Shown one piece after another: positions 4,001-56,628 of a DNA stretch of 64,000 bases (position 1 is its first letter; every line of letters starts with the position of its first letter). Below the pieces are notes generated by a model. The model had not been told where the DNA came from and ran no database searches. It saw only the letters and a list, made by a program, of their open reading frames with translations. Source of the stretch: Antedon mediterranea (lineage: Eukaryota > Echinodermata > Crinoidea > Comatulida > Antedonidae); NCBI RefSeq assembly GCF_964355755.1, contig NC_092676.1:30143871-30207870 (forward strand). Reading direction: 5' to 3'. A program made the translations under genes and the position numbers.

Positions 4001-6276
4001 TTGAACGCGTGCTTACAAAGGCGTGTAATTGATTGAACGCGTGCGTACAAAGGCGTGTCATTGATTGAACGCGTGCGTATAAAGGCGTGTCATTTATTGA
4101 ACGCGTGCGTATAAAGGCGTGTCATTTATTGAACGCATGCGGCTGTGCAATTTACGATCCAGTCAACTTTGTAATGTTTTTCCCCTATTTAATAAAATTA
4201 ATACCATCATCCATCACATTATTCACCAGATATAAACGAATGCGCATCGAGTCCTTGCCAACATGGAGGAGCTTGTAATGATGGAGTGAATAGATACACG
4301 TGTAGCTGTGTTGCAGGCTCAGTCGGAACACATTGTGAAACAAGTAATGATAGATTCAAATCTTTTGATATAAATTAAAATGAACCAGTGATTGCCCAAT
4401 AGGTAGCCTATATCTATGAATGTATTTTCATAATATTTGTAAATTCATTAATTGATCAACTTTTACAACCGATGAATTTCAGTTCTTTAACTACATATTT
4501 GTTTTCTTCAGATATTGATGAATGCGCGTCGGTTCCTTGTGTAAACGGAGCTACGTGCATAGATGACCTCAACCAGTACACATGCACATGCGTACAAGGG
4601 AACAGTGGAACACACTGCGAAATAGGTATTTCTAGTTCTTCTTATGTACTTTAATCGTGTCGATTATTAATAAATTATATTATCTCTTAGTGTACGTGAA
4701 TTCTGTAATCCGATTGGTCAATAAATGTATGAGATATTACGCCCATTTACTCAGTCAAGCGGATCAGAAAGGTAGTACAGGTATATCCCGTATTACCTTG
4801 TTTATTTATTGTATTTTTATCGTTTAGCGCATGCGTAGTTGTGATTTCAACCATCGAATATAAACCCGTTTCGACGGTCCGTAATCACTAAGAGATAAAA
4901 TTGTTGCACCCTGCTTGTTCTTACGGAATACGGGAAATATCTACGTTCTGGTTCCATATTCCATCGGCCTCATGGAATATGAAACCAGAACTTAGATATT
5001 CCGTGAACAAGCAGGGTGTAACTAATAGTATTGCATAGTATACTTTCAAAAGTACTATTGAACCACCGTTCAATAGTACGTACTATTACACGCCATGTGA
5101 CCCACAATCGTCCAATCAAATGACAGAAATTTATTTAGGACGTGTTATTTCATTTCATTTCATCTTTTATATCGGAAAAAATAATACAAAGGACAAATTT
5201 CTACATAGCTCAAGAACATATAATATATGCTTTTACCGGTTATAATGTCTGTGTAGGTGTTCTATTCTCACTTAGAATAGCTTGGTTTTTGTTCCTTTTT
5301 TCGATAGGGTCTTTAAATATGTAATTTAATCTTACAGATATCGACGAATGCGCTTCTAGTCCGTGTCTGAATGGTGGGACATGTACTGACCAGTTTAACG
5401 GTTACATTTGCACATGCGAACCATGGTATTATGAGTATAACTGCGCAACATTAGGTAAGCAAAGATTCAACAAAGACATAATTTATTTACGTTTATTGAA
5501 TTTTATATGATTGGTGGTATTTAAATTAGGGTATAAGGCGGATGGTTGAGTTTTGTCTTGGTCTGATAGCCATTTCTACACATCAACCTATTTCTAATTC
5601 ATATTAATTGATTGATAGAATGGTATATGCTACTTGTTATGCTTGTTGGTTCCATTCCCAATGACGCAACAAAAAGACGTAAGCGCAACGCAAGTGTGTG
5701 ACTATTAATGACAATCGACAATTTGAATAATCTATCAGGCTTGTGATTGGTTACATTTTTAGGTTGCGCTTACGACATCTTTGCGCAGCAGACTTTCTCA
5801 AAGTCTGTAGTTATTGTCTTTTTTATGTTAGTCCGCCAGTCGACGTTTCAATTTTGTTTGTTTCGAGTTGAAGTATTATACGCCAGAAGTCAAAATGCAG
5901 TCTAAACACTATACTAGTTCTTGCGTTGCGTCATAGTGGGAACCAAGCTTTAAATGTCATGCAATATGTTTTTGGATGGAAATAACTATATAACATCTAA
6001 TTTAAAATTAAAGATGCATCGTATAGTACATCAGATCTGACACCGTTTCCAGACAGCGCACTTCTAAACAAAGCGTATAAAATAAAACAAGTGCGCAGTA
6101 AGATAGAGTGTATAAAACAGTGTACGTCATCGACTGGATGCCAGTCTGTCAACTACGAAACATCGACGGGAAAATGTGAAATGAACAGCGAGACGAAGGC
6201 TAATAATGATTATGCATTTAGTACAAGTTATTATGGTTATTATTACTATGAGTACGTAGCAGGGGGTGGGGGTTAA
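1033..6276 (+). CDS. Secreted SRCR / four EGF / PAN-like protein
   Basis: Seven exons: 1033-1093, 1912-2250, 3245-3361, 4230-4343, 4512-4625, 5338-5454, 6014-6276. Every internal junction is phase 1 and the joined frame gives 374 residues. Exon 1 is a signal peptide ([14 protein letters not shown]...). Exon 2 is a scavenger-receptor cysteine-rich domain, with [14 protein letters not shown] and [10 protein letters not shown]. Exons 3-6 are one EGF domain each, with the DIDEC-type start and six cysteines of calcium-binding EGF repeats. The last exon is a cysteine-rich module (IECIKQC, CQSVNYE, GKCEMN) resembling PAN/apple domains and ends in a Gly/Tyr-rich tail. There is no membrane segment, so a secreted recognition or adhesion protein is likely. 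Each domain on a symmetric phase-1 exon is the classic exon-shuffling pattern. No named vertebrate orthologue is recognised. The domain calls are firm; the PAN call is less so. Confidence 0.85.
1242..1293. repeat. Three copies of a 17-bp tandem repeat
   Basis: The unit TATACGTACAATGTTTA is repeated three times in intron 1 of the SRCR/EGF gene. Confidence 0.7.
1601..1757. mobile_element. Hairpin MITE, family 1 (AGCTCTGTCTACAC ends)
   Basis: Short element with inverted ends around CTCCGTCTAC and GTGTAGACAGAGCTT and a core of GTGATGCGCCCATATATGG plus a second half in reverse. About a dozen relatives occur in this window. Part of a second copy end follows at 1838-1865. Confidence 0.7.
3835..4140. 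repeat. Degenerate tandem repeat of about 33-36 bp
   Basis: Units of the type GCGTGCGTATAAAGGCGTG followed by TCATTTATTGAAC are repeated about nine times in intron 3, becoming more alike toward the 3' end. The array stops about 90 bases before EGF exon 4. Confidence 0.75.
4903..5020. repeat. Fold-back inverted repeat
   Basis: Two arms of about 50 bases, starting GTTGCACCCTGCTTGTTC and ending with its complement, face each other around a short centre near 4965. A transcript would form a long hairpin. It sits in intron 5 and carries no coding sequence. Confidence 0.8.
5041..5150. repeat. Dispersed repeat, copy 1
   Basis: Contains CCATGTGACCCACAATCGTC and CAATCAAATGACAG. A close copy occurs at 17705-17800 in CHAF1B intron 2, and a related tail (CATAGCTCAAGAACA) recurs near 38087. 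Probably a short non-autonomous mobile element. Confidence 0.55.
5645..5955. mobile_element. Hairpin MITE, family 2 (GGTTCCCACTA ends)
   Basis: Inverted ends GTTCCATTCCCAATGACGCA and GCGTCATAGTGGGAACCAAG enclose arms of the type GACGTAAGCGCAACGCAAG. This copy is longer than the usual ~155 bases because of extra internal sequence. Seven more copies occur in the window. Confidence 0.65.
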
Positions 6277-6574
6277 TTAGTTGCAACATCACAAGACGGT
6301 GGATTTTTTAAATATCCAGACATTTTTAAAAGTAAATGCATTTTGTAGATTTTTGTTATTGAAAAAAGTCTTAAAGATTAATTTTATTACAGTATATAGC
6401 ACAATAACATAATTAGGTTGCCACTTGGTAAAGTGCTTTACCAAACTATAGTTTTAATATATATATATATATGTGCAGTAGGCTACAGTAAAACACAATC
6501 TTTTCTGGGACACCACTATTCTGGAGACTCGTTCACGAAATGAGAGGCAATATATGATTTAACACTACGGCCAT

Positions 6575-6795
6575 CCCTATCGAGGGGCCAACCACTATCG
6601 AGGGGCCAACCACTATCTAGGGGCCAACCACTATCAGGGGCCAACCACTACTATCGAGGGGCCAACCAGTATCGAGGGACCAACCAGTATCGAGGGGCTT
6701 GGCCACTATCGAGGGCCAACCACTATCTAGGGGCCAACCAGTATCGAGGAGGGGCCAACCACTACCGAGGGCGGGCCAACCAGTATCGAGGGGCC
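6575..6795. repeat. Degenerate array of a ~19-bp unit
   Basis: About eleven irregular copies of the type GGGGCCAACCACTATCGA, with small insertions and deletions between copies. Confidence 0.8.
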
Positions 6796-6825
6796 ATTCC
6801 TATAAAGGGATCACTTAGATCATAG

Positions 6826-7075
6826 AGGTATAACATTAGATTTTGTACCTCCGTGCTTGGATTGTGAGGTATAACATTAGATTTTGTACCTCCGTGCTTG
6901 GATTGTGAGGTATAACATTAGATTTTGTACCTCCGTGCTTGGATTGTGAGGTATAACATTAGATTTTGTACCTCCGTGCTTGGATTGTGAGGTATAACAT
7001 TGATTTTGTACCTCCGTTCTTGGATTGTGAGGTATAACATTAGATTTTGTACCTCCGTGCTTGGATTGTGAGTGT
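6826..7075. repeat. Six copies of a 41-bp tandem repeat
   Basis: The unit begins GAGGTATAACATTAGATTTT and ends GTGCTTGGATTGT. Copies are nearly identical, pointing to recent expansion. Confidence 0.9.
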
Positions 7076-7269
7076 CTCGTTAATAGAGGTTCTACAAAGA
7101 TAGATGATGATGCGGCTGTTTTTTACAAAACTATAATGTGTAAATTAAGTTATTATTTTTATACCATGATGTTATATATTACATTGATTATGGGACCTTA
7201 AGTACGAAAATCTAATAGAAAGAGATAACATTATAGATTTTATTGAATCATTAAATGAGTTTGTAACTA

Positions 7270-7402
7270 AAGCTCTGTCTACACCATCAAACTTTATGTG
7301 ACAAAAAAATGTAATGTGCCCATATATGGACATGGTGATGTCATATCACTACCATATTTGTGTACATCACACTATATTTTGTGTAGTGTCGACAGAGCTT
7401 AA
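7270..7402. mobile_element. Hairpin MITE, family 1
   Basis: Starts AAAGCTCTGTCTACACCATC and ends GTGTCGACAGAGCTT, with the GTGCCCATATATGGACATG core. Confidence 0.75.
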
Positions 7403-7563
7403 GATATACAGTAATACAGTACATGATATTTATTAACAAATCAAAATATATACTTTTTAGAGACTATGTATATGTTAAGGAAATGTTTACTTTAAGTTAC
7501 AAACCAATGTATAAAATATTGTAATTTTTGTGTAGTATTGCATTGTTGTATTGAGCTGCACTA

Positions 7564-7569
7564 AATAAA
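7564..7569 (+). terminator. Candidate poly(A) signal of the SRCR/EGF gene
   Basis: AATAAA 1.3 kb past the stop codon and only ~25 bases from the minus-strand AATAAA of RARS2 at 7592-7597. If both are used, the two convergent transcripts meet or overlap here. Confidence 0.35.
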
Positions 7570-7591
7570 TCAATGGCTAATAATAATAATA

Positions 7592-7597
7592 TTTATT
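7592..7597 (-). terminator. Candidate poly(A) signal of RARS2
   Basis: TTTATT on the plus strand, i.e. AATAAA on the minus strand, about 170 bases after the RARS2 stop codon at 7769. Confidence 0.45.
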
Positions 7598-7768
7598 TGT
7601 TTATAAGCATATTTCAATAACTATTTCCATAATTACATAGTTAAGCACTAACATTGTGTAAGTAAAATAATGTTGGTTGTTAATGGAGTTATACCTCCAT
7701 GGTTGGTTGAATAAGAGATATATATTATCTATATACTGTATGTCTCTGGTTAGTTGTATGGTATATTG

Positions 7769-10700
7769 CTACATCTTGTTGAGTGGTTTTAGACCGAGTA
7801 CTTTCATACCGGTACTAAGAATGTCCTGAGAATGGTTGAAGAGGAGCAACCTAGCCTGTAAAAGAAAATTATAGAAAAATCATGTTTATGGAAACAATGA
7901 TCACGAATAATATAAGTAGTTCTTTGATAGTAAACCAATAAAACTTACGTTGGCAAGACAGTTTCGTCTAGCTGTCAGCTTGACTTCTTCAGTTGCTATG
8001 ATGCGTTATGGCGCCGATTGGTCTCCTTTCCAGCCACTAGATGATTTTGTTGTGTAGCCTAGGGGACCAGTCGTCGTCAGAAGCTGATCGTAAATGTGAG
8101 ATAGTTGGTGCGCGCCTTCGTCTCTATTCATCTTTGTATTTTTATTTTGCTTTCTTATGCTGATGCTTTCTTTAATTTTACGTTTAAGCCAAACTTGTTC
8201 TTTGTGTAGTACCTCTATCTTATCCCAGTTAGGTATGTGGTTGGTGTGGTCATATGGTCCGTGATTGCTGATTTATGTAAAATGGAGGACGAAACTTTCC
8301 GTGATGCACGCGTCTGCATGTTCTGTGTGTTTTCCTCAACATCTTTCTTGTGCTCTTTAATTCTGGTTTTGAGTGCCCTACCCGTTTCCCCAATGTACAC
8401 CATCTCACAGTTGGTGCACCCCACTTTGTAGACGACACCACAGGAATCCTCTTTGCATGCTTTATCTTTCGGTCGGACGATTAAGTTTTTAATTTTGTTA
8501 GATGGTTTAAAGTATGTTCGTATGTTATATTTTTTAAATGTTCTCTTGATTTTCTCTGACAGGCCTTGAATATATGGGATGGATATCGACCCTCTTATAT
8601 CTTCTGTTTCGGGTTGTTTGTCCGTTTTTTGTTTTTCTAGGTTACGTTGTACCTTTCTAATCGTCCATGTAGGGTAGTTGCATTGTTTAAGTGAAGTATG
8701 TATCATCTCAGTTTCGTTCTGTTTGTCTGGATTATTTGTGATTATCGTGTTACATCTGTGTAGAAGTGTGCGGATAACGGATAACTTGTGTTGTAGAGGA
8801 TGATGTGAGTTAAAGTCCAAGTATTGATTTGTGTGGGTGGCTTTCCTAAAAACTTTAGTGTTGATGTTGCCTTCCCCATCAACTAAAATTAGCGTATCCA
8901 AGAATGGGATAGAGTTGTCTGTTAAGGACATTTCTTCGCAAGTGAAATTAATGTCATCATCGATTTTGTTTAAGTGTTGTAATAATGGTTGTGTCGCATC
9001 CTTGGGAATTATTGTTATAATGTCATCTACATACCTTTTCCACATCCTCGGTTTTATGTCGGTGTGAGCTGTAGTTATTGCCTCATTTTCCAGCCATTCC
9101 ATAAATAAATTCGCAACAATCGGAGAACATGGACTACCCATGGCCATACCTGAATTTTGCTGGTAGATATCCCCTCTGAAGCTGAAATATGTGGTGGTGA
9201 GGACCAATTGAAGCAATTCCATAATGTCGTTGATATGTAACCACGTTCTCTCTGATAGTTGTTTATCACAGTGTAAGCGTTCTTCAATTATTTTGAGGGA
9301 CTTGTTGACTGGTGTTTTGGTAAATAATGACACTACATCATAAGAGACCAATGTTTCATTTGGCTGTAACTTAATGTCCTTTATGTCATTGACAAATTCA
9401 AGCGAATTGGTAACATGATGGATGCTGTTTCCAACTAGTGGTACGAGAATGTCGGCTAAGCTTCGTGACAAATTGTACATAATGGATCCCGTATAATCGA
9501 CTATGGGACGTAACGGATTATTCATTTTATGGATTTTTGGTGTGCAGTAAATTCTTGGTGTGATGTCCGACGTGGGGTACAAGTAGTGTTTTTGTTTGAC
9601 AGTGATTTTCTTTTCTTTGAGGAGTCTCGTGATTACAGTGATAAGTTTTTTCTTGTAGGATGAGGTAGGATTTTTCTTTAATAGCGTGTATGTATCAGTA
9701 TCTGAAAGCATGTTTCTCACTTTCTCATCATATTCTTTAGTGTTCAGAATTACTGTGGCCCTACCTTTATCGGCCGGTAATACCATAATGGTTTTATCTT
9801 TCGCGATGTTGTTCAAAGCCTGCATCTCTTCCTTGGTTACATTCGGAGTCGGAGGTTTAGTAGATTTAATTAGGCTTACCATCTTCCCTCGAAGTTGATC
9901 TTTTTCTATTTCCGGTAAAAGATTGCATGCTGATTCCGTGGCAACGATCAGTTCTTCAGTAGGGTGGTTAGGTTTCGTAATCGCGTAGTTTAAACCTTTG
10001 GTAAGTACATAGTTCTCAGTATGTGTTAGCCGTCTGTTGGATAAGTTAATAACCCACTTTTTTCGTTGTGATCCTGTAGATTGCAAACCATCTGTATTCT
10101 TTTTGTCCCTTATGTTCAATTGTATATCTAACTTATTGATGTGAATGTCTTTAGTTTTCTTAAATTCCGATTCGCGTATGTTTGCAAAATGGTGTGTTAT
10201 AGTTGCTTTATCATCTAGGTCAACAATGTTGCAAATCTTTTCTTCAATACGTTTGAATTCTTCATTTAAGTTTTTAATCTTGTTGGTCGTATTTCTAATC
10301 CTTTCCCCTACTAATCCTTTTTGTGCTTTCTTAATTATGTCATATCCTTTCTTCGTTTTTAGCGGGAAGTTCAGTCGTAGACTTCGCGGAGTGATATCTT
10401 CTTGTTTACACCTTAATGTGAATGTTCTATGGTTACGAAAACGCGCGATCTTTTTTCCAACAATTTCTCCCTTTCTGAGTAATCGGACCAAATCTTGTCC
10501 ATATTTCTCTCTCAATAATGAAAACATTTCTTCTGGTTTCGATTCGTATAATAATATAAGTAGTTCTTTGATAGTAAACCAATAAAACTTACGTTGGCAA
10601 GACAGTTTCGTCTAGCTGTCAGCTTGACTTCTTCAGTTGCTATGATGCGTTATGGCGCCGATTGGTCTCCTTTCCAGCCACTAGATGATTTTGTTGTGTA

Positions 10701-13700: not shown

Positions 13701-16559
13701 GACGAGAGAAGCCCTTGATCAATATCAGGACCATTCAAGGTGCTTTAAACAGTCCTGGCTTTGTTTGTATCAAACCTGTTAGTGGCGGTAATTATCGCTG
13801 TTGGTTTCAATTGAATAAAAAAAAAAAAAAAAAAAAAAAAAAATTTATAAAATGTTTCATTTCTTACTTTTAGAGGCTCTCATGTTTTGCAGCATATGTA
13901 ACTTAGCCTCTTCTATAATATCTTCCAAAAAAACCACATTGCCTTTCCGAGTGCTCATGCCGAGGACGCGTCCAAATGATACATGATGACACCTTCCAAA
14001 AAAAAAAAAAATTCTTATTGTTGTTACAGTTACTGTTCTTGTAGTCGTCTTCTACTGAAGTCACATGACCGTCATTGACGGATACTTCTCTGCTGGTGTA
14101 CTCGAGATCTACCATGCTATACATATAATTTACAATTGATTTTATTGCAAATATTAAATCAGTGCTGTATTAAATACTTCAATTGGGGAGCATCTTAGAA
14201 CACATGTTCAGCTTTTGTGATTACATTTTATTATATACCCTGACCAAAATCTGATATGTTACCATACCTATCTGACCAATCATGGCCAATCTTACTAAGC
14301 GTCTGGAACAACCCAGAAAAATGATCTGCCTGGCTTTTATCTACAACATAATACATGTTGTCAAACTCGTAACGCTTGAATCGCTCAATGGCTGCAGCTA
14401 GGTCACGAGTAATGTACAGAGATGTGCCATCACTACGAGCAAGGGTCACGAACTTTGACATGGATCCATCAGGTGAAAGGTCAATTATGTCGGTTCCATT
14501 TCTGTTATTAAAAGAAAGATAACTATTTGTAATTTCTTGCATTCATTTTGCAAATAAACCAACCAAACTCTGTGCTGTACTTACATAGCTTTTTGAAGTA
14601 TATTTGTTTCTTTGAGTTGATTCGTAAGATCTTGAGCTGCCTGGCTTTTATCTACAACATAATACATGTTGTCAAACTCGTAACGCTTGAATCGCTCAAT
14701 GGCTGCAGCTAGGTCACGAGTAATGTACAGAGATGTGCCATCACTACGAGCAAGGGTCACGAACTTTGACATGGATCCATCAGGTGAAAGGTCAATTATG
14801 TCGGTTCCATTTCTGTTATTAAAAGAAAGATAACTATTTGTAATTTCTTGCATTCATTTTGCAAATAAACCAACCAAACTCTGTGCTGTACAGATCTTAG
14901 ATTCCCCAGAATATTCATCAAATTTTATTCCTAAATGCTTTAAAAGAAAAAAACAAAAACAATTTTTTAATTTAAAATTTATAGAAAAAAGGTATTATAC
15001 GGTAGTTATAAAATATTCATCATTTGTTTTCATTTTTACCTTGTATGTGTGTGAGTAATCAGAAACACTTTGATCACGAATTTCACGCCACAAACTTAAT
15101 ATTTCTTCATCGCCATCTTCCATTTTTCTAAAGATTTCTCTTGCTTTTATTTTGAACTCTGCGTTCACTTCAGCTTCGCTGTTAGCTGCTACATAAACGT
15201 CAAATAAAGATCTTGTTGAAAAGACAGTTTGGTTTTGTTTCTTCAATCCTGCTGCTAAAATACCAAACTGGGTTCCCCAGTCACCTAGGTAATTGATACT
15301 GGTCACCTGGTGTCCAAGCAATTTATGCAAATTTGTTAAAAATTGACCTATAACTGTTGACCGCAGATGACCAGCATGAAAAGGTTTTGCAATATTTGGA
15401 GAACTGAAAGGAATAACAAATTTCACTTAAAAATGATGTTTAATAATAAATTACTAAATTAGTATTCAATTGAAAAAAATTAATAAAAGAAACGCACCAA
15501 CCTGTATTCAATTATAACTTTTTTCTTTGGCTCATTTGATCTTGGAACGCCATACTGTTGGCCAGCTGAGTTTATTTTTCCTAAAACATACTAACAACAA
15601 ATAAAAAAAAAAAAGTAAATCATGGAATTTGTCCATTTATAAATTTCCCCGGAGTTTGCTGGGGATAATAAAGTTTTATTGAATTGAATTTATAAGTTGA
15701 GTAGTTAGAAGATGAGAAGCAAAATATAAGCTCTTTTTTTCTTACCTCAACAAATCTGGATGGTTTTATCTTAAAACTAATGTGAGTTGAGTCTATAGCA
15801 ATATTCTCAATGTACTTTCCGGGATGCGTTATCTAAAAAATAAATTACAATTATTTTATCTGATTTGTTTTGGTCTTTGAAATAAAAGCAAATTCAAATT
15901 TAAGTTGTTACCTTAGCAGCAACCTTTCCAGCATATTTTATGAGTTCAGAGTCTGAGAGTACTTGACCCGGATTCTGAATATCATTTAGGGACTTGACAG
16001 ACACACTTAATTCACCTCCACACCTAACAACAAAATTAAGTAAACCAAAAATGAAATTATTAATTATTTAGTATTAAAGTTACATTATGCACAGTAGAAC
16101 TACTATTTAGGGGATCAAGTGTCCCCTTAAATGAAAAGGATTTGATATTTAATTTTCAACTGATTAATGCTATTTTGTAACATTACCTTTTCTTTAACAT
16201 AAGTTGAGGAAAATTAATCAGTGGTAGAATTTGCTCTTCTGTCAAACCTATTGCCATGGAAACCTGCAAATACAATTTCAACATAAACAATTTAATATAA
16301 AATGTTACCATTTAATCCAAATTACATATACAACATGTATCGCAAATTAGGTACCGGTAGAATCAATTCTCCTAGGCTACCACTGGATATCCTCGCAGAG
16401 ATGGTTGTAAACCGCGGAAAATATGCCTTGTACTGTGGTCAAAATATTATCACGCTTCATTGATCTTGTAAATGCATGGGCCTAGCCTTTAACTTGCTTG
16501 AAAACGACTGTGTTCTTACCTGCTTTGCTACAATTTCTCGTAATTTTTTAGTCGCCATA
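7769..16559 (-). CDS. RARS2: Mitochondrial arginyl-tRNA synthetase
   Basis: Fourteen exons, in gene order: 16521-16559, 16187-16263, 15912-16023, 15746-15832, 15502-15590, 15040-15403, 14892-14937, 14585-14636, 14268-14501, 13868-13992, 13180-13366, 12785-12946, 12606-12669, 7769-7855. All phases agree and give 574 residues, close to the family length as I recall it. The enzyme charges mitochondrial tRNA-Arg. The class I signatures are HAGH at 144-147 and MSTRK at 379-383 (KMSKS equivalent), with [11 protein letters not shown] between and an anticodon-binding C-terminus ending [13 protein letters not shown]. The sequence resembles RARS2 rather than cytosolic RARS1. The last intron (7856-12605) holds a Penelope-like composite, intron 10 a 5S-headed SINE, and intron 7 is a copy of neighbouring sequence. 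The open, in-phase frame indicates a functional gene. Confidence 0.92.
7896..7907. repeat. Target-site duplication, left copy
   Basis: AATGATCACGAA, matched exactly at 12496-12507. The 12-bp direct repeat brackets the whole Penelope-like composite, with one base of ambiguity at the right edge. Confidence 0.85.
7962..7992 (-). ncRNA. Hammerhead-ribozyme-like core, left terminal repeat
   Basis: On the minus strand: CTGAAGA (7992-7986), then a potential stem GTC...GAC with an inner AGCT/AGCT pairing, then GAAA (7965-7962). Order and spacing are those of a hammerhead CUGANGA / stem II / GAAA core. Helix I pairing is weak and there is one extra A. Such ribozymes are known in Penelope-like elements; activity here is inference. 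Confidence 0.4.
8215..10527 (-). CDS. Penelope-like RT / GIY-YIG polyprotein, frameshifted near its end
   Basis: A 770-codon reading frame starting [10 protein letters not shown]. The reverse transcriptase region (about 245-640) has [13 protein letters not shown] (motif A), [16 protein letters not shown] (motif B) and YVDD at 499-502 (motif C). Next comes a cysteine-containing linker ([17 protein letters not shown]) that leads into the GIY-YIG endonuclease signature [17 protein letters not shown] around 711. Compared with the plus-strand copy, one base is missing near 8240. The frame therefore ends in an unrelated tail and loses the last ~80 residues, including the Glu-bearing KIKESI helix expected to complete the nuclease site. 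The element copies its RNA at nicked target DNA. This copy is probably not autonomous. Confidence 0.85.
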   Translation of the reverse strand: MFSLLREKYGQDLVRLLRKGEIVGKKIARFRNHRTFTLRCKQEDITPRSLRLNFPLKTKKGYDIIKKAQKGLVGERIRNTTNKIKNLNEEFKRIEEKICNIVDLDDKATITHHFANIRESEFKKTKDIHINKLDIQLNIRDKKNTDGLQSTGSQRKKWVINLSNRRLTHTENYVLTKGLNYAITKPNHPTEELIVATESACNLLPEIEKDQLRGKMVSLIKSTKPPTPNVTKEEMQALNNIAKDKTIMVLPADKGRATVILNTKEYDEKVRNMLSDTDTYTLLKKNPTSSYKKKLITVITRLLKEKKITVKQKHYLYPTSDITPRIYCTPKIHKMNNPLRPIVDYTGSIMYNLSRSLADILVPLVGNSIHHVTNSLEFVNDIKDIKLQPNETLVSYDVVSLFTKTPVNKSLKIIEERLHCDKQLSERTWLHINDIMELLQLVLTTTYFSFRGDIYQQNSGMAMGSPCSPIVANLFMEWLENEAITTAHTDIKPRMWKRYVDDIITIIPKDATQPLLQHLNKIDDDINFTCEEMSLTDNSIPFLDTLILVDGEGNINTKVFRKATHTNQYLDFNSHHPLQHKLSVIRTLLHRCNTIITNNPDKQNETEMIHTSLKQCNYPTWTIRKVQRNLEKQKTDKQPETEDIRGSISIPYIQGLSEKIKRTFKKYNIRTYFKPSNKIKNLIVRPKDKACKEDSCGVVYKVGCTNCEMVYIGETGRALKTRIKEHKKDVEENTQNMQTRASRKVSSSILHKSAITDHMTTPTTYLTGIR
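10606..10636 (-). ncRNA. Hammerhead-ribozyme-like core, internal terminal repeat
   Basis: Same core as at 7962-7992: CTGAAGA at 10636-10630 and GAAA at 10609-10606 on the minus strand. It lies upstream of the minus-strand ORF, where a self-cleaving motif would define the 5' end of the element RNA. Confidence 0.4.
10786..12363 (+). pseudogene. Penelope-like RT / GIY-YIG, 5'-truncated inverted copy
   Basis: A 525-codon frame colinear with residues 317 onward of the minus-strand ORF. It contains YVDD at 184-187, [20 protein letters not shown] (381-400) and the complete C-terminus with [12 protein letters not shown], which the minus-strand copy has lost. It lacks the N-terminal ~315 residues and part of the RT fingers, so it cannot make a whole enzyme. 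The ORF runs into the terminal repeat and stops at 12363. Confidence 0.85.
12377..12407 (+). ncRNA. Hammerhead-ribozyme-like core, right terminal repeat
   Basis: CTGAAGA at 12377-12383 and GAAA at 12404-12407, with the same stem II as the other two copies. Downstream, AAACT (12405-12409) could pair with AGTTT a short way on to form helix III. Confidence 0.4.
12496..12507. repeat. Target-site duplication, right copy
   Basis: Exact partner of 7896-7907. Confidence 0.85.
13060..13180. repeat. ~20-bp tandem repeat overlapping a RARS2 splice donor
   Basis: About six copies of the type TACTGATCATGTGACATACC. On the minus strand each reads GGTATGTCACATGATCAGTA, so the real donor of RARS2 exon 11 (GT at 13179-13178) is the first of a run of similar GTATGTC strings. 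Confidence 0.8.
13482..13843 (+). mobile_element. 5S rRNA-headed SINE with long A tail
   Basis: Positions 13482-13599 match the 5S rRNA pattern (TACCACGTTGAAACACCGGT, TCACCGAAGTTAAGCAACG, CTTGGATGGGAGACC, GGGTGCTGTA). They carry changes from the animal consensus, so this is not a working rRNA gene. About 220 bases of non-rRNA body follow, then a run of about 26 A. This is the layout of SINE3-type elements, transcribed from the internal 5S promoter and mobilised by a LINE. It lies in RARS2 intron 10, antisense to the gene. Confidence 0.85.
14326..14580 (-). repeat. Donor segment of the RARS2 local duplication
   Basis: These 255 bases (most of intron 8 and the 5' part of exon 9) reappear, apparently identical, at 14637-14891. 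The match starts and stops abruptly at both ends. Confidence 0.85.
14637..14891 (-). repeat. RARS2 intron 7: exact copy of intron 8 / exon 9 sequence
   Basis: The copied block begins with GT and ends with AG in gene orientation and fits exactly between exon 7 (...AAGATCT) and exon 8 (CTCAAGATCT...). The copied exon fragment inside cannot be used as an alternative exon: exon 7 ends in phase 1 whereas this exon needs phase 2. Joining exon 7 to exon 8 keeps the frame and family alignment (GESKISQDLTNQL). Confidence 0.8.
15600..15700. repeat. Possible LINE 3' tail fragment
   Basis: CCCCGGAGTTTGCTGGGGAT then AATAAAGTTTTATTGAATTG and a short repeated tail, in RARS2 intron 4. The hairpin plus simple-repeat end resembles truncated non-LTR retrotransposon ends. 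Weak call. Confidence 0.3.
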
Positions 16560-37021: not shown

Positions 37022-40000
37022 GTGGTTGATGTTTGTCGAAGGTCAGCAAGATTAAAAGCTGTTGAAAAGATTGAAAATATTATTAAAGAAGAAATTAGTG
37101 AAACTGAAGAAGAAGATTTTGTTGTACTTAAGTCTGAACCTACCACTGTAAATGACGTAAGTAGATATTTTATCTAATTATAATAATAAATTATAAACAC
37201 AAACGTTGAAATAAATGAATGAAAGTACCTACTCACAGTTATTACTTGCATATTGAATTTCTTTTGTTTCTTGCAACAAAGGTAAAAAACTCAGATCTAT
37301 CAGAATATGAAAAAATGAGGCAAAGAAATATTGAGGAAAACAAAAAGTTTTTTGCCTCACTGGAAATCTTCCAGACTAAGAAAGACATGCTGATGTTCAC
37401 TCCGAATGGAACTAAGAAATCAACAACTCGAGGCTTAAAAAGGTAAACAGGAACAAAACACAAACTTGTTTGACAAAAAAGTGTTATGTGCCCAAATATG
37501 GTAGTGATATGAAATCATAAACTTTTATGGTATAGACAGAGCTTTACATAAAATATTCGGATCAAGTTTGGAAGAGGTCGTAAAACACATTTATTCTTTT
37601 TTTAAATCATTTTTATTATATATTTAGTGAAAAAAAGAAAGCAGAGCAAATTGTTCTTCGTCCTCGTTCACTAAGGCTTCAAAATATTTCTCCGAGTGGC
37701 GAATACATGCCTGTAGAAATGGTTGAACCTGAGAAACGACAAGTAAGTTGTATGATGTTGTTTACCGTATATTTACTTTTTGTTTTAATTTATTATTTAT
37801 TGATTAATTTTGTTGTTTTTTGTAATTTCTAGACAAGAAAACTAGCTGGGCCAATCCCTATGGTACCAACTAATATCAAGAATGAAGGCAAAGAAAATTT
37901 GACAACAGGTTTCAGTGACTGCGTGCAATGTTTGCATAATAGATCAACAGAAACACATTCTCCACGCCACAACAAGTAAGTAATGTTACCAGTTAATAAC
38001 TACTGAATACTTTGATGTTTATACTTCGAAACCCTGTTTCATTTTTTATTTCGGAAAAAGAATATAGAGTACAAAATTCTCCATAGCTCAAGAACAAACT
38101 ATTTCATTTTTAGATTTGTAGAAGCACTAAAAAATCTGAAACTCACAGAAGAAAAAGTTGCTAAAGTTGTTCCTAATAGAATATGTTCAGTTATTGCTCA
38201 TCCATCATCGTCTAAGCTTCTTGTAGGAGTTGGTGACAAATGGGGACACGTTGGATTGTGGGATGTGGTAAGTATGAAACTTAAAATAAGTAGTAGACAC
38301 AACAAATTGTTATTATAATTCAATTTAAATTGTTTTGAACACACTCTGTATAATATGAAAACTATAAATATGTAATTTGATTTATTTTAGCATATACAGA
38401 TAAAAAAAATGAAAATATACAGGAAATAGATCAAAACATCAACAACATTATAAAAATATAGAGTTGTAATAACTTAAAAAATTCATCCCATATGCAGTAC
38501 ACATGCAGACACAACAAATGTTTTGAAATACACTGTGTGCAATACGTAAAATGTAAGCTCATTTCTTGCAAATAATACACTACAATCTCAACAAATTTGT
38601 TTTGAACTTAACTTTATCAACTTGTTTCCATGTGTAGGATTCTAAAGAAGACAATGATGGGGTTTATCTATTTGAGCCACATTGTAAACAAGTACCCAGC
38701 CTTAAATTTGCACCGGCAAATTCTGAAAAGTTGTTTACTTGTAGTTACGATGGAACCGTAAAGTGTGGTGACTTAAACAACATGGTATTTAATGATGTAA
38801 GTTATAAAGTGAGAGTTATAAACATATATACAAACTTTCCAAACACTGTAAATCCTTATAATTATAATAGATGGGTACAGATTCTGTCCGACACGAAGGT
38901 CAAAATGGATCTTTTAATCGAGGTCATAGCTTACAGTCTTTAGCTACATCTTTTATTATATATTACCATTTTATTGTTGTGTTGTATTGTTTACCATTGA
39001 ATTGATAGAAATTAATAAATGTTGAATTTTTAATCACTCAATGCTTTAATTAACTGTAACAATGTTTCTAACACATAAAATATAATTATTGCTGTACTTT
39101 TTTTTAGATATATTCAACTGACCCTGAGGAAGACCTGTGGATAAGTTACATGGACCTGCTATCACCAGATGGATCTCAACTGCTCGTTAGTCAGAATAGG
39201 AAGAATGCATATGTTGCTCTCGTTGATCAAAGAAAATCCAGGTACAGTAGTCTTACTTAACTTAAATCAATTATCTTAAAAATCATGTAAACTATTTAGT
39301 TTTATTTGGTTCTTTCATATTAAAGTTTGATTTTTGTCTTGCTTACTATAGAAGTATGTACATTTAGATGGTGATAAGCTTTGATTAGCTAAATAGCTAT
39401 ACCTTAATATCACCATTTGGCAATTAAATTGTTCTTTTTGTTGACAATAAAGATTATTATGAGTAGTACTGCACTCTCAAATTTCATTTCATAAATGCGA
39501 TAATAAAGTTTATCTTATATATTAGTAGGAGTAGGGAGTACTAGTCTTTCTACTACTCTTACTAATATCAGTAAGAGCAGTACTCACTAACCTTACTATT
39601 GAATTGCTTAAAAACACAATTTGATATTGTTATGTTTTATTACTTATCTTTATTACAGTTCTTCAGTCCCGTCGTACATGTTACATTTATTACTTATCTT
39701 TATTACAGTTCTTCAGTCCCGTCGTCGTACATGTTACATTTATTACTTATCTTTATTACAGTTCTTCAGTCCCGTCGTCGTACATGTTACATTTATTACT
39801 TATCTTTATTACAGTTCTTCAGTCCCGTCGTCGTACATGTTACATTTATTACTTATCTTTATTACAGTTCTTCAATCCCGTCGTCGTACATGTTACATTT
39901 ATTACTTATCTTTATTACAGTTCTTCAGTCCCGTTGTACATGTTACATTTATTACTTATCTTTATTACAGTTCTTCAGTCCCGTCGTCGTACATGTTACA

Positions 40001-43000
40001 TTTATTACTTATCTTTATTACAGTTCTTCAGTCCCGTCGTCGTACATGTTACATTTATTACTTATCTTTATTACAGTTCTTCAGTCCCGTCGTACATGTT
40101 ACATTTATTACTTATCTTTATTACAGTTCTTCAGTCCCGTTGTACATGTTACATTTATTACTTATCTTTATTACAGTTCTTCAGTCCCGTCGTACATGTT
40201 ACATTTATTACTTATCTTTATTACAGTTCTTCAGTCCCGTCGTCGTACATGTTACATTTATTACTTATCTTTATTACAGTTCTTCAGTCCCGTCGTACAT
40301 GTTACATTTATTACTTATCTTTATTACAGTTCTTCAGTCCCGTCGTACATGTTACATTTATTACTTATCTTTATTACAGTTCTTCAGTCCCGTTGTACAT
40401 GTTACATTTATTACTTATCTTTATTACAGTTCATCAGTCCTGTCGTCGTACATGTTACATTTATTACTTATCTTTATTACAGTTCTTCAATCCCGTCGTC
40501 GTACATGTTACATTTATTACTTATCTTTATTACAGTTCTTCAGTCCCGTCGTCGTACATGTTACATTTATTACTTATCTTTATTACAGTTCTTCAATCCC
40601 GTCGTCGTACATGTTACATTTATTACTTATCTTTATTACAGTTCTTCAGTCCCGTCGTACATGTTACATTTATTTCTTATCTTTATTACAGTTCTTCAGT
40701 CCCGTCGTACATGTTACATTTATTACTTATCTTTATTACAGTTCTTCAGTCCCGTCGTCGTACATGTTACATTTATTACTTATCTTTATTACAGTTCTTC
40801 AGTCCCGTCGTCGTACATGTTACATTTATTACTTATCTTTATTACAGTTCTTCAGTCCCGTCGTACATGTTACATTTATTACTTATCTTTATTACAGTTC
40901 TTCAGTCCCGTCGTACATGTTACATTTATTACTTATCTTTATTACAGTTCTTCAGTCCCGTCGTCGTACATGTTACATTTATTACTTATCTTTATTACAG
41001 TTCTTCAGTCCCGTCGTACATGTTACATTTATTACTTATCTTTATTACAGTTCTTCAGTCCCGTCGTTGTACATGTTACATTTATTACTTATCTTTATTA
41101 CAGTTCTTCAGTCCCGTCGTCGTACATGTTACATTTATTACTTATCTTTATTACAGTTCTTCAGTCCCGTCGTCGTACATGTTACATTTATTACTTATCT
41201 TTATTACAGTTCTTCAGTCCCGTCGTCGTACATGTTACATTTATTACTTATCTTTATTACAGTTCTTCAGTCCCGTCGTCGTACATGTTACATTTATTAC
41301 TTATCTTTATTACAGTTCTTCAGTCCCGTCGTCGTACATGTTACATTTATTACTTATCTTTATTACAGTTCTTCAGTCCCGTCATACATGTTACATTTAT
41401 TACTTATCTTTATTACAGTTCTTCAGTCCCGTCGTACATGTTACATGATCGCAAGATAAAAACCTTATCCATCCACCCGCAGAAGAGGAATCATTTTATT
41501 ACGGCTTCAAATGATAGGTATGTATCTTAGTTTAATGTTTTACATTATTATAGTAATTAATGAAAACGTTATTTTTTAGAAGCATTGTTGAATCTAAATC
41601 TCTCTTTTAGAACTGTTGCATTATGGGATCTACGCATGTTAAAAGAACAAGGTACAAACAAGCCACTAGAAGTCATACGGCATACGAGGGCCGTTTCAAG
41701 TGCGTTCTTCTCGCCAATCACTGGTAGAAAAGTACTATCTACTTCTTTTGATGACCACATAAGGTAATGCTTAACTACAATCTCAATGAATGCTCACTGT
41801 ACTACAAGCATGGAGCCATGGATTTATTAAAGTTTAAATTTTAAATATAATAAAATAAGCAGCTGCAGGTAATCTAAGTGATAATTTACATATTCCAACC
41901 TAATTGAAGCGATTGTATTAAACTTAAAATGTGTGCTAGCTCAAATTTTTAGTTTAATCTCTATAAACATTATACTCTTACAGAATAGCAGAATTTAATG
42001 AAAGTGGTTCAACTGCAGGGTTTGAATTGAAGTTGAAACTCAGGTAAAAAAAAAATTATACAATTAACATGTTTGGCAATGTTAACAACAATAATGCTGC
42101 ATAATATTTATTATACAATGTAGTCGTTTAGAATTTAAAATAGATAAAGGGTAACAGTATTTTTAGACTATGTTAATGCGTATGACGTAAGGCTGGCGTG
42201 GCTTACACCAGTCCAGGGATTAGAATTAAGCTAATCCATGGATTAAATGCCACGGTATTCACAGGAACTACATTGCGTTTGTTTTATGTTTTAAAGCTTT
42301 AAAAAAAGTCTGGAGTCCCTTTAATTTAGTTTGTACATTAATTTATTTATGAATTAAGCTTTTATATAATGATGCCTACCAAGAACAGAGCGCCTAACAA
42401 TATTTAAACTACTGGTTAAAAAATAACTTAAGGTGAAGTTTAAATGGAAGTGCTGAATTTGTTTCTCTCAATTCATATTCTTTTTAATGGGGTCAGCAGG
42501 TGTCCTAGGCAACGGCAACAAAGTGCATGGTGTTATCACCACCGCCTTGTTCAGCTTCATACCAGGTTTACGCCATACATGTGAACATACCTTTAGAATA
42601 AAATGTAAATTCTTTCTAAGCAGTTTTGATTAACCGCGCATAAATTTAACATCAAATACCCACACCATTTGTTTGACAGACATAACAATCAAACTGGTAG
42701 ATGGGTTTCAAACTTTCGTGCTCAGTGGCACCCACAGTTGGAAGATATATTTGTAGTTGGTTGCATGGATCGACCAAGGAGGGTAAGTACAGGTTATTTT
42801 TTCACAATTTGTTAATCCAATCTTTTAGACCGTTTAAACCTTCTCTTAGAGCAGTACAGTAGTTATTTTCATTGAATCTTATCAGGTTTTGAATTTTTTT
42901 GAGTTTTTTTATATTTAGAAGTATCACACTATTTCTACGTGTTAAGGAATTCTTTTGGCGTATATTTCCTACTCTATGTGGTGTTTTTTGTTTGTTTTGT

Positions 43001-46328: not shown

Positions 46329-46405
46329 TAAGCGTGGTTCACACTACAGACGCAACGCAGTGACGTACGCGCAACATAAGCGAGTTGACCAATGACAAGC
46401 CACTT
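46329..46405. mobile_element. Hairpin MITE, family 2 (left half only)
   Basis: AAGCGTGGTTCACACTACAG followed by ACGCAACGCAGTGACGTACG; the mirror half is absent. Confidence 0.55.
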
Positions 46406-46714
46406 TTATTATGCCATTATGAGAATAATATTTATACTGGTAACATATGTTTTTATGCATCCGCAAAAAATATCGGTATACGTTTTTGGGGAATCCACCC
46501 ACTGACTTATTTTACCCAGAATTTCCATCAGATATGCAATTTAACTGTTTGATTGAATATTGATAGGAAAATTATTCATATAAAATTTGCCGCTATTTGC
46601 ATTAATAATTACAACAAGTAACATATGGTGCTATATCGATTTAAATCTAAAGTCAAGAAGTGGTCGGCATAGGTTACGTTGCGAATTTGTTTTATTAGGC
46701 CTATGAAGGTAATA

Positions 46715-47475
46715 GCAGGGTAACTTAGCACTTTTTTTGTGCACTTTGTGACAAAAGCACCAAATTTGGCACAAACCTTCTTTAGGGTATATCTAACAAT
46801 CCTAGAAGGGGTGCCCAAAAATCGGAACAATTTAACGACGTCATTTGGACCACGCCCTTTTTTTAGTATTACGTAATTAGGTGAAAACTTAAATCTTCGT
46901 ATATACATACCAAGTTTGGTATCAAATTAAAACTCATGACATGTACATTGCAATACACACATAAAAAATATATGATTTCTCTTCAGACGTGACGGAATAT
47001 ATAGGTCAAATAATGTAATTTTCTGTCATATTGAAGGTTATTTCAATCAAAACGTGCCAATATTGTGCTATGTTATGAACATTGTAGTTATAAGAACAAC
47101 AACATTCATTTTTGTAATAGTACGAATATATATTTATCCTGTACCAGTTACTTTCCTTTAAAATAATATTAGGAACCACTGAAAAAAAGTATATAAAACA
47201 TATACTGTATCAAACTTGGGCTCAATAACCACTGGACTATTAGTAAACCGACAAAAGACCATTTGACTGACAATTATGGCGTTAGCATCCATAACAATAC
47301 ATGGAGGTGATTATCAACTTTACTTTTATGAAATTATTTATCTGGAAACAAACACTTATAATGGTACAGAGTTGCTAGATGACGAACAAGTTCCACGGCA
47401 TGGGTAACAAGACCAGTGCACTGCTGAACGGCACTTGCAGTTCCCTGAGCAAAAAGGCAACTTTTTGCAGCCACA
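46715..47475. repeat. Long inverted repeat, left arm
   Basis: About 760 bases that reappear inverted at 49462-50215 with scattered differences. The arm holds the 3' coding end of the nuclease-like gene (cysteine-rich tail) and outward non-coding sequence. Short frames starting MYIRRFKFSPNYVILK in both arms are identical only because of the repeat. Confidence 0.85.
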
Positions 47476-49480
47476 CTTTAGCAATTCCCTACATGCCTTG
47501 GATGCTTCAGGTAGTATTGTCCAGACTGGTGTCCATGTACTGCCGGTTTTAGTAATAATAATAATAATAAACAGTATTTATATAGCGCCTAATGAATCAC
47601 TGACCCCTCTAGGTGCTTTACATAGGACCTTAACTAATGGTAATAAACTATCCCCCGCCGGACACCATTCCGGTATTTCTTAGTCGAGGTTTCGGTCCAA
47701 CCAAAGTCTTCTGGTGATGGAGCATTCTGCTGTGGCTGTAGACTGGTGGTCCAAATGCTTGCTTGGTATATGGATCTGTTGGAATGCTGTAAAAGTGCAT
47801 CCTGCAATAAACAATTTAAAGATTGGTGTTACCTTTTAATGAAAGAAAAACATGAACCTTATAATAAATTATTAAACGACAATTGACAATTATATGGAAG
47901 CTCCCCTTACCTGTGTAGGAGGAATGTTGTCCATTGTCCGTGTCTTTCTTGAAAAAAGATCTTGTCTTAGCTTAGTAACACTTCTTAAAGTACTTGTCTT
48001 GTCGTATAGATGACATGTAAACTCCTCTAGCAACTGGAATTGAGATGAGTTGACTCCTAGAGATTTGAAAGGGTGATGTGCCATGAAAAGAAAGGCTTCT
48101 GTAACTGCTGGAAATGAGTTCCACGTCTCCCATGCGGAGTGTTTTGCTTTTCCGAAGAACTGGGATGTAGTATCGGACCCAGTAAATGCATGAAAAACTG
48201 GCAGCCCTCTTGACTTATCCTCTCCTAGGTTATGGCAGATGGTATTTATATTAAAATATTGGAAGTGCTTACCCATGCCAAATGCGACCCAGATACACAT
48301 ACCAGGATAACAGGCTATTAGATTGCAGAAAATACCAACCAGGATAACAATGACATCAGTATCAACTGTACGCACCAAAATAACCCTGCTACCTTTCTTT
48401 AAGGCATCATCAATGTGAATGCACATCTTGGAGTCGGCCTCTTCATGGTCGCAGATTGACATAGGTTGAGTAGATGTCAACATACAAAAGACTCGCCTAC
48501 AGGACATATATCAAGAATTACTTACTATTTAATATGCCTTTTTAATTAATTATTGGTATGAAACTGTATAAGTAAATTAATCGTTTGGTTACAAACAAAA
48601 TAAATTAGTATGTATCATAATAAAACTTACCTGATGCAGTCAGAGTAATCATGGGTAGACACCTTTGTAGTTAAAAAGTTAAATAACTCCTCTTTATTTA
48701 CTGGATCTTTCAGAAAGTCTGGAAAATTCCCTGGAATCTTTGTTTGTCCCCCAACTTTCCTCCTGACCCCTTTTCCTCTTTTTTCTCCTGTAGACTGCTT
48801 AAGACTATCTGTTCTGTAAGTGTCCCACACTATATCAATTCTGTTACTATTCTGCAGCTGCTGTCTGGTCCACGGTAGAAAGACCTGTCATACAAATGAT
48901 ACAAGAATAACGATCCGCATATAGAAGTGACCAATTATATGGTGGTTAAACAATAGATACAATCCTGAATGCAAAGAAATGTACTCACCTTATCACCGTA
49001 GTCATCAAATGTAAATGCATGGTTGCTGGAAAGAGCATGGACAATAGCAGCTCCGTCAAACACCTTTACATCAAAATATGTAGGAGGTTCAGGCTGGCCT
49101 TCAGTCTCCAAATGCTGTAGCAACTCAGACTTCTTAGTTGGTAGTCGAAGCTTTCCATTTACTGCCAAAGAGGGTGGCCATGGCTGGTTTTCGTGCATGA
49201 AGAAGTCTTCCAAATCTCCATCACGAGATTGACTTGCAATATACTCTTAACTTGTTGCTTTGTTTTGGACACTGATTTTGACCATGGTGTTTGATGGCTT
49301 GTTGAATAATTGCAACACTTCTGTCGAGAATAACTTCCTTGAAGTATTTTTGGTACTGGGTAGTACCTACATCCTGAATTGTACGAACTGTCACTACTGC
49401 ACTTTCATTGGCACAATCTCGAGCATCCAAGACCAGAAGTTCTGAACAATTATCGAGGAATTGGTTGCCTGCATTGCTCA
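47356..49480 (-). pseudogene. Decayed gene for a FEN/XPG-like nuclease with CXC tail
   Basis: Segments in gene order: about 49480-48989, 48884-48631, 48496-47911, 47801-47356, with GT-AG junctions between them. Strings recall an unnamed metazoan protein family: LVLDARDCANESAVVTV, then FDVKVFDGAAIVHAL, DIVWDTYRTDSLK with EKRGKGVRR, CDHEEADSK, VRTVDTDVIVI, LPVFHAFTGSDTTSQFFGKA. Their order matches the FEN-1 layout: N-terminal Asp, Asp plus basic helix, EEAD, DTD, then GSD with a helix-turn-helix. The C-terminus (ILPEASKACRELLKCGCKK, then CKCRSAVHWSCYPCRGTC) looks like a tesmin-type CXC domain. Lesions: a frameshift near 49235 and a repeat inserted at about 47546-47665 before the cysteine tail. 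The N-terminus is not found. The nuclease assignment is inference from motif order. Confidence 0.7.
47540..47665. repeat. Dispersed repeat inserted in the nuclease-like gene
   Basis: A (TAA)n run then CAGTATTTATATAGCGCCTA and CTCTAGGTGCTTTAC. This type of short repeat is common in marine invertebrates. It interrupts the frame between YRNGV and the WTPVWTILPEAS segment. Confidence 0.55.
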
Positions 49481-50215
49481 GGGAACTGCAAGTACCGTTC
49501 AGCAGGTCTTTCTTGCACTGGTCTTTGTTATCCATGCCGTGGAACCTGTTCGTCATCTAGCAACTCTGTACCATTATAAGTGTTTGTTTCCAGATAAATA
49601 ATTTCATAAAAGTAAAGTTGATAATCACCTCCATGTATTGCTATGGATGCTAACGCCATAATTGTCAGTCAAATGGTCTTTTGTCTGTTTACTTAGTCCA
49701 ATGATTATTGAGCCAAGTTTGATACAGTATATGTTTTATATACTTTTTTGCAGTGGTTCCTAATATTATGTTAAAGGAAAGTAACTGATACAGGATAAAT
49801 ATATATTAGTAGTTGTATTACAAAAATGAATGTTGTTGTTCTTATAACTACAATGTTCATAACATAGCCCAATATTGGCGCGTTTTGATTGAAATCCCTT
49901 TCAATATGACAGAAAATGACGTTATTTGACCTATATATCCCGTCTGAAGAGAAATCATATGTTTTTTATGTGTGTATTGCAATGTACATGTCATGAGTTT
50001 TAATTTGATACCAAACTTGGTATGTATATACGAAGATTTAAGTTTTCACCTAATTACGTAATACTAAAAAAAGGGCGTGGTCCAAATGACGTCGTTAAAT
50101 TGTTCCGATTTTTGGGCACCCCTTCTAGGATTGTTAGATATACCCTAAAGAAGGTTTGTGCCAAATTTGGTGCTTTTGTCACAAAATGCACAATCTTCAT
50201 AAAAAATGGAAGTTA
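49462..50215. repeat. Long inverted repeat, right arm
   Basis: Inverted partner of 46715-47475. On the plus strand it carries a second, diverged copy of the cysteine-rich tail (CSGNCKYRSAG ... CYPCRGTC, stop at about 49580), placed tail-in toward the gene's own N-terminal end. Confidence 0.85.
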
Positions 50216-50249
50216 GCAACCTAGCTATAAAGCAATGTCATTTGGTTGC

Positions 50250-50380
50250 CACTTGAACGCAAAACGCAAGGACGTTAGCGCTGCGCGCAAGTCATTTGAC
50301 CAATCATGACGCGAGGATTATCCGAACTTGGGATTGGTTAACTCACTTGCGTTGCGCGTACGTCGTTACGTTGGGAACTA
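50250..50380. mobile_element. Hairpin MITE, family 2 (degraded)
   Basis: GGTTGCCACTTGAACGCAAA to CGTACGTCGTTACGTTGGGA, with TTTGACCAATCATGACGCGA inside, just right of the inverted-repeat element. Confidence 0.6.
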
Positions 50381-52696: not shown

Positions 52697-52853
52697 ATTG
52701 GTTCCCACTAGCGACGCAACGCAAGAACGTAACGCAACGTAAGTGATTTGACCAATCACAAGCCATGGATTATTTAAACAGTTGTCATTGGTCAACTCGC
52801 TTGCGTTGCGCGTACGTCCTTGCGTTGCGTCGCTAGTGGGAACCACGCTTTAA
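52697..52853. mobile_element. Hairpin MITE, family 2 (near full length)
   Basis: GGTTCCCACTAGCGACGCAA to TTGCGTCGCTAGTGGGAACC. The ends are nearly perfect inverted complements, with arms of the type GACCAATCACAAGCC. This is the best reference copy in the window. Confidence 0.85.
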
Positions 52854-56472: not shown

Positions 56473-56628
56473 AAAGCGTGGTTCCCACTAGAAACGCAAT
56501 TCAAGGACGTACGCGCAACGCAAGCGAGTTGACCAATGACTATTAGCCACTGTTCGAATCATCCATCGCTTGTGATTGTCAATTGCGTTACGTTCTTGCG
56601 TTGTGTCGCTAGTGGGAACCAAGCTTTA
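56473..56628. mobile_element. Hairpin MITE, family 2
   Basis: AAGCGTGGTTCCCACTAGAA to GTCGCTAGTGGGAACCAAGC, close to the reference copy at 52697. Confidence 0.8.

Follow-up and report, generated by a model that had tools for sequence, protein, structure and literature searches.

A 64,000-nucleotide stretch of the genome of the crinoid Antedon mediterranea (contig NC_092676.1, positions 30,143,871 to 30,207,870 of the forward strand; hereafter the window, in whose numbering positions are given) contains a decayed gene lying within a mobile element. The gene spans 49556-47356 on the minus strand and reads, in order, KVFDGAA, DIVWDTY, GEKRGKGVRRK, CDHEEADS, RTVDTDV and FTGSDTTSQFFGKAK, after which comes a cysteine-rich tail, CGCKKLPFCSGNCKC...CYPCRGTC. 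This is the FEN/XPG-type motif order that an initial annotation had pointed out. Of the limits given there, 47356 to 49480, the first holds; the gene starts at 49556, and the element around it is wider (46713-50227).

The gene is made up of four GT-AG exons, with splice sites assigned by inspection and reading frames from translations. Exon 1 (48989-49556) encodes the start of the nuclease with FDGA and has a frame break near 49221-49246; exon 2 (48631-48884) carries VWD and the basic RGKGVRRK stretch; exon 3 (47911-48496) holds the nuclease core, with EEAD, DTD and GSD..FFGKAK; and exon 4 (47356-47801) encodes a cysteine-rich, CXC-like tail. Comparison with other copies shows that exon 4 is split by a 135-bp insertion (47554-47688). 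This insertion and the break in exon 1 leave the gene broken in this copy.

The family to which the gene belongs is large. Of 5,680 candidates in a protein search, 290 proved to be homologues at E≤0.001 (best 5e-180). In the same genome (354 Mb, 18 contigs searched) exon 3 has 153 matches, and 15 of these, the window's included, are at least 95% identical over 204 or more of the 206 residues. The resemblance is thus far beyond chance. The listed named homologues are mostly 'hypothetical' or 'uncharacterized', a few being 'CXC domain-containing'. The family had been called unnamed, which is roughly true of the protein databases; the element most likely belongs to a transposon group that already has a name, AcademX.

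The edges of the element are placed at 46713 and 50227 (3,515 bp) because BLAST alignments to copies elsewhere in the genome stop there, while the flanks differ. Fifteen other copies were fetched, and both ends were read in all of them but L020 and L023; these 13 and that of the window make 14. The element begins with TAGCAGGGT.. and in the window ends with ..ACCTAGCTA, unlike the 13 other copies read, which end with ..ACCCTGCTA. The consensus termini are TAGCAGGGT and its complement, departures being changes in single copies: the right end of the window element, the left end of L012 and a site just inside the left end of L022. A 3-bp target-site duplication, TAA, lies on the left (46710-46712) and on the right (50228-50230), and matching 3-bp duplications surround 12 of the 14 copies. 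With shared termini and differing flanks, these support the mobility of the gene that had been proposed.

Among the 15 other copies, 14 lack the 135-bp insertion; only L014 has it, and L014 likewise shares the broken exon 1. The flanks of L014 and of the window copy have no detectable similarity, and each copy is bordered by TAA/TAA. The two are therefore most simply explained as having moved with help supplied in trans.

The nuclease is predicted to adopt a FEN/EXO1/XPG-type 5′-nuclease fold, as the initial annotation had suspected. Structure comparison supports this, the relatives recovered being FEN1, EXO1, XPG, GEN1 and XRN structures at 8-16% identity among those listed. The acidic motifs also follow the order seen in FEN1. 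Eight acidic residues (D789, D828, D832, E924, D926, D950, D952 and D1010) are conserved in all 44 rows of homologues, and E923 in all 43 rows that have a letter there. The window copy, despite its damage, keeps all nine.

The tail is less easily classified. It had been likened to tesmin, and its cysteines do look CXC-like. The source names of two homologues refer to a CXC domain. Matches to Pfam TCR are weak and confined to some relatives: 4 of the 50 members of alignment A1 (best E 0.0076) and, in the same genome, L030 (E 0.009) and L024 (E 0.59). Three isolated tails gave no match to this model.

In full-length homologues the nuclease forms only the C-terminal part, and a DDE-type (Asp-Asp-Glu) core lies upstream in the same protein. 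A longer homologue used as query matched at least 706 proteins among the 7,994 candidates scored, and many of the 120 listed are 1,520-1,545 residues long. Such fusion proteins occur in coral (P0163), limpet (P0207), pipefish (P0004) and sea spider (P0063). A literal motif scan of all 44 proteins longer than 1,450 residues, among 232, found DN[ILV]DH in 39, D[QA]PLY/F in 43 and GGLH[IV]E in 37, alongside [ED]GA (42), WDxY (41), EEAD (42), TVD[TS]D (40) and G[CS]DT (43).

Residue order, conservation and secondary structure suggest that the upstream region is a DDE transposase core. In a 1,187-residue model (predicted local distance difference test score, pLDDT, 81.7), D155 is part of a strand, D333 comes just after a strand, and E552 sits in a helix beyond a large helical insertion. 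Among rows with a letter at each position, D155 is conserved in 37 of 37, D333 in 42 of 43 and E552 in 43 of 43. The assignment is indirect because the nuclease dominated the structure search run with this model. The transposase region is weakly related to Pfam DUF6589 (scores of 27.1 for P0047 and 28.3 for L030, against a cut-off of 27); a literature search for DUF6589/PF20231 matched a single paper, on optics. Other weak matches, to the GTPase HflX, de novo TIM barrels, VioD, DUF7736 and assorted Pfam and NCBIfam models, were judged to be due to chance.

The same genome also harbours longer relatives. An element of about 7.16 kb is common to L024 and L026; its terminal repeats are TAGACAGGTTCC/TAGACAAGTTCT, and the 3-bp duplications of the two copies are TCT/TCT and TAC/TAC. 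Its 1,547-codon frame, in which both the DDE-type core and the nuclease are found, is continuous in L024 and interrupted in L026. The frames of L024, L025 and L030 are divergent, with 26-28% identity to P0146 and P0163 in alignments of 1,109-1,600 columns. In L025 (frame 3809-8380, minus) and L030 (frame 1264-5004, plus) an acidic extension follows the cysteine tail. In family B (L028/L029) no 5′ end could be located. At G000:C10:9695325-9697897 a 743-codon open frame covers the transposase region, with 59% identity to P0003, and the nuclease is 50% identical to that of the window; this locus is a candidate intact relative.

The window gene, on these sequence comparisons, is a 5′-truncated remnant of such a transposase-nuclease fusion, and the repeats of the element hint at how it came about. 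The left inverted-repeat arm (46737-47461) encodes the CXC tail at its inner end, and the right arm (49464-50193) still encodes a fragment of that tail on the plus strand, as arm alignment and translations show. Each arm is about 0.7 kb, and a local alignment of the two is identical in 694 of 717 columns. Since the inner end of the left arm encodes the CXC tail, this arm is read as the natural, ancestral 3′ end of the gene, and the right arm, in consequence, as its inverted copy. It follows that the truncated gene opens, at the start of exon 1 inside the right arm, with ~27 codons that are antisense to the CXC codons. The 5′ part of the gene would have been lost, and an inverted copy of its 3′ end, CXC codons and terminus together, added on the 5′ side, creating the long repeats. 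The derivatives, including the window copy and L014, would then have been mobilised by transposase supplied in trans.

Two further loci preserve upstream codons. In L040, which has a 3-bp duplication, the same arm leads straight into codons of the transposase, which match P0003 residues 284-423 at 59% identity, include one stop and run on into the nuclease. Set against the window copy, the interior of L040 (G000:C6:17923100-17926700) is inverted relative to the outer termini, which suggests that recombination between the arms has flipped it. L041 lacks an exact left terminus; its codons are retained from about residue 221 onwards, with frame breaks, and its right arm is only ~265 bp long, as would fit repeats that were shorter in the ancestor. 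The genome has 35 exact left termini, and at six of them, L040 included, P0003 residues 282-369 are matched on the inner side, a count made by coordinates, L040 alone having been read as DNA.

Taken together, the element is best explained, with a probability of about 0.8, as a non-autonomous derivative, formed by deletion, of a DNA transposon; intact relatives encode a DDE-FEN fusion of ~1,525 residues, and the element most likely belongs to the AcademX lineage of Academ. The nuclease of AcademX is XPG-like, and Academ proteins carry a Cys8 zinc finger. AcademX is described as the nuclease-encoding Academ lineage, with a DDE transposase and target-site duplications of 3-4 bp (PMC10045372). Architecture and 3-bp duplications lead to this placement: the full-length homologues likewise pair a DDE-type transposase with a nuclease. 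The window copy differs in having no transposase part and in its long inverted repeats, apparently derived from its own 3′ end. Thus the nuclease idea was right, but the system is probably not of a new kind; the initial observation is confirmed and its interpretation partly supported.

The intact protein would comprise, in order, an N-terminal cysteine/histidine region, the DDE core with its helical insertion, the FEN/EXO1-type 5′ nuclease and the CXC-like tail. The DDE core would cut and join the element ends by strand transfer, the FEN-like nuclease might trim or cut 5′ flap-like strands at the excised ends or at the insertion gap, and the zinc-binding ends of the protein may hold DNA. A more far-reaching version, in which the nuclease is an obligate second catalyst that cuts the strand left uncut by the DDE core and sets the 3-bp stagger, and in which amplified derivatives whose gene is open could make a nuclease-CXC product that modulates transposition of the parent in trans, appears improbable.

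Several observations weigh against the deletion-derivative explanation, or against parts of it. Two of the 14 copies, L011 and L012, are without matching duplications, and the 112 matches listed include none to P0003 residues 1-220 in the vicinity of the 35 exact left termini. The motif DQ[AG]HEQ is found literally in only 28 of the 44 long proteins. Structure searches with the 1,187-residue model returned nuclease relatives and low-probability rows; the RNase H-like fold of the transposase part is read from secondary structure and conserved residues. On the nuclease side, FEN/XPG-type models had no Pfam match in 9 + 3 longer proteins and no NCBIfam match in four proteins, and neither XPG_N/XPG_I nor FEN is among the 25 Pfam families listed for the 50 homologues of alignment A1. 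Nuclease activity and its place in transposition are predictions, and the AcademX placement is made from architecture and duplication length.

Other known systems resemble the element in part. AcademH belongs to the same superfamily as AcademX but encodes a helicase and makes duplications of 9-10 bp (PMC10045372, PMC10799480), and a RecQ helicase is mentioned for Academ in another report (PMC3627910); here the duplications are 3 bp, and in the longer proteins that were scanned Pfam matched no helicase family. The Kolobok lineages also pair a DDE transposase with a nuclease, but those of KolobokP, KolobokD and KolobokE are His-Me finger, DEDDh or PD-(D/E)xK types, which are not FEN-like, and KolobokP has long direct terminal repeats (PMC9587614). 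FEN1, EXO1, XPG, GEN1 and XRN share the predicted fold and acidic motif order, unlike the window family in that the latter is fused to a transposase and a CXC-like tail and lacks a FEN/XPG profile match. In the portions of the literature searched, no detailed account of a transposase-FEN nuclease fusion was found.

It is conceivable that the DDE transposase-FEN nuclease fusion defines a superfamily separate from AcademX, since the latter was chosen from described features, and the transposase region is related to DUF6589, which bears no Academ label. Set against this, the nuclease and the 3-4 bp duplications already described for AcademX (PMC10045372) are both present here, and a separate superfamily appears unlikely.

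The initial annotation had instead suggested the nuclease-CXC gene as the sufficient transposition enzyme of its own element, an undescribed, nuclease-only transposon system. In favour of such a system, an exon-3 nuclease match is found within 6 kb, on the inner side, at 33 of the 35 exact left termini (counted with 42 exon-3 match rows hand-picked at ≥73% identity; L040 and L039, a remnant consisting of the arm alone, are the exceptions), and one of the 14 copies is open across all four exons, judged by frames with splice sites unchecked. However, full-length homologues are fusions with the DDE-type core upstream, copies with a broken gene have moved anyway, and L040 and L041 keep upstream transposase codons, albeit with stops or frame breaks. 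The mean nonsynonymous/synonymous ratio is 0.61 (91 pairs among the 14 copies), and within copy groups the 90 nonsynonymous and 31 synonymous changes, with three stops, come close to neutral evolution (p 0.17); between two copy-group consensuses the ratio is 0.28, on only 8 differences (p 0.07). This explanation is very improbable and was rejected on account of the transposase codons in L040 and L041. Also very improbable is a host origin, with the nuclease a captured FEN/XPG-type gene or the family a domesticated host gene: the fold is that of host FEN1/EXO1/XPG, but identity to the solved structures listed is a mere 9-15%, the fusion in coral, limpet, pipefish and sea spider proteins argues against a recent host origin, L024, L025 and L030 of the same genome align to fusions of this type, and this reading was rejected, a host orthologue not having been searched for.

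Read as a deletion derivative of a transposase-nuclease transposon, the element makes a widespread and mostly unnamed metazoan protein family legible as a DDE-type transposase fused to a FEN/EXO1-type nuclease. The fusion makes a role for a flap-type nuclease in transposition directly testable. The copies themselves record a transposon that lost its transposase and was capped by an apparent inverted copy of its own end, yet spread.

Other repeats lie in the window. A short palindromic repeat family occurs on either side of the element (46330-46398, 50263-50373, 52699-52850 and 56493-56518); its core pattern occurs three times in the window when up to three mismatches are allowed, against a chance expectation of none. 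Further away, 39636-41446 is a minisatellite with a 53-bp unit (~35 copies, 95% matches), and 14322-14891 holds 1.8 tandem copies of a 311-bp unit that are 99% alike.
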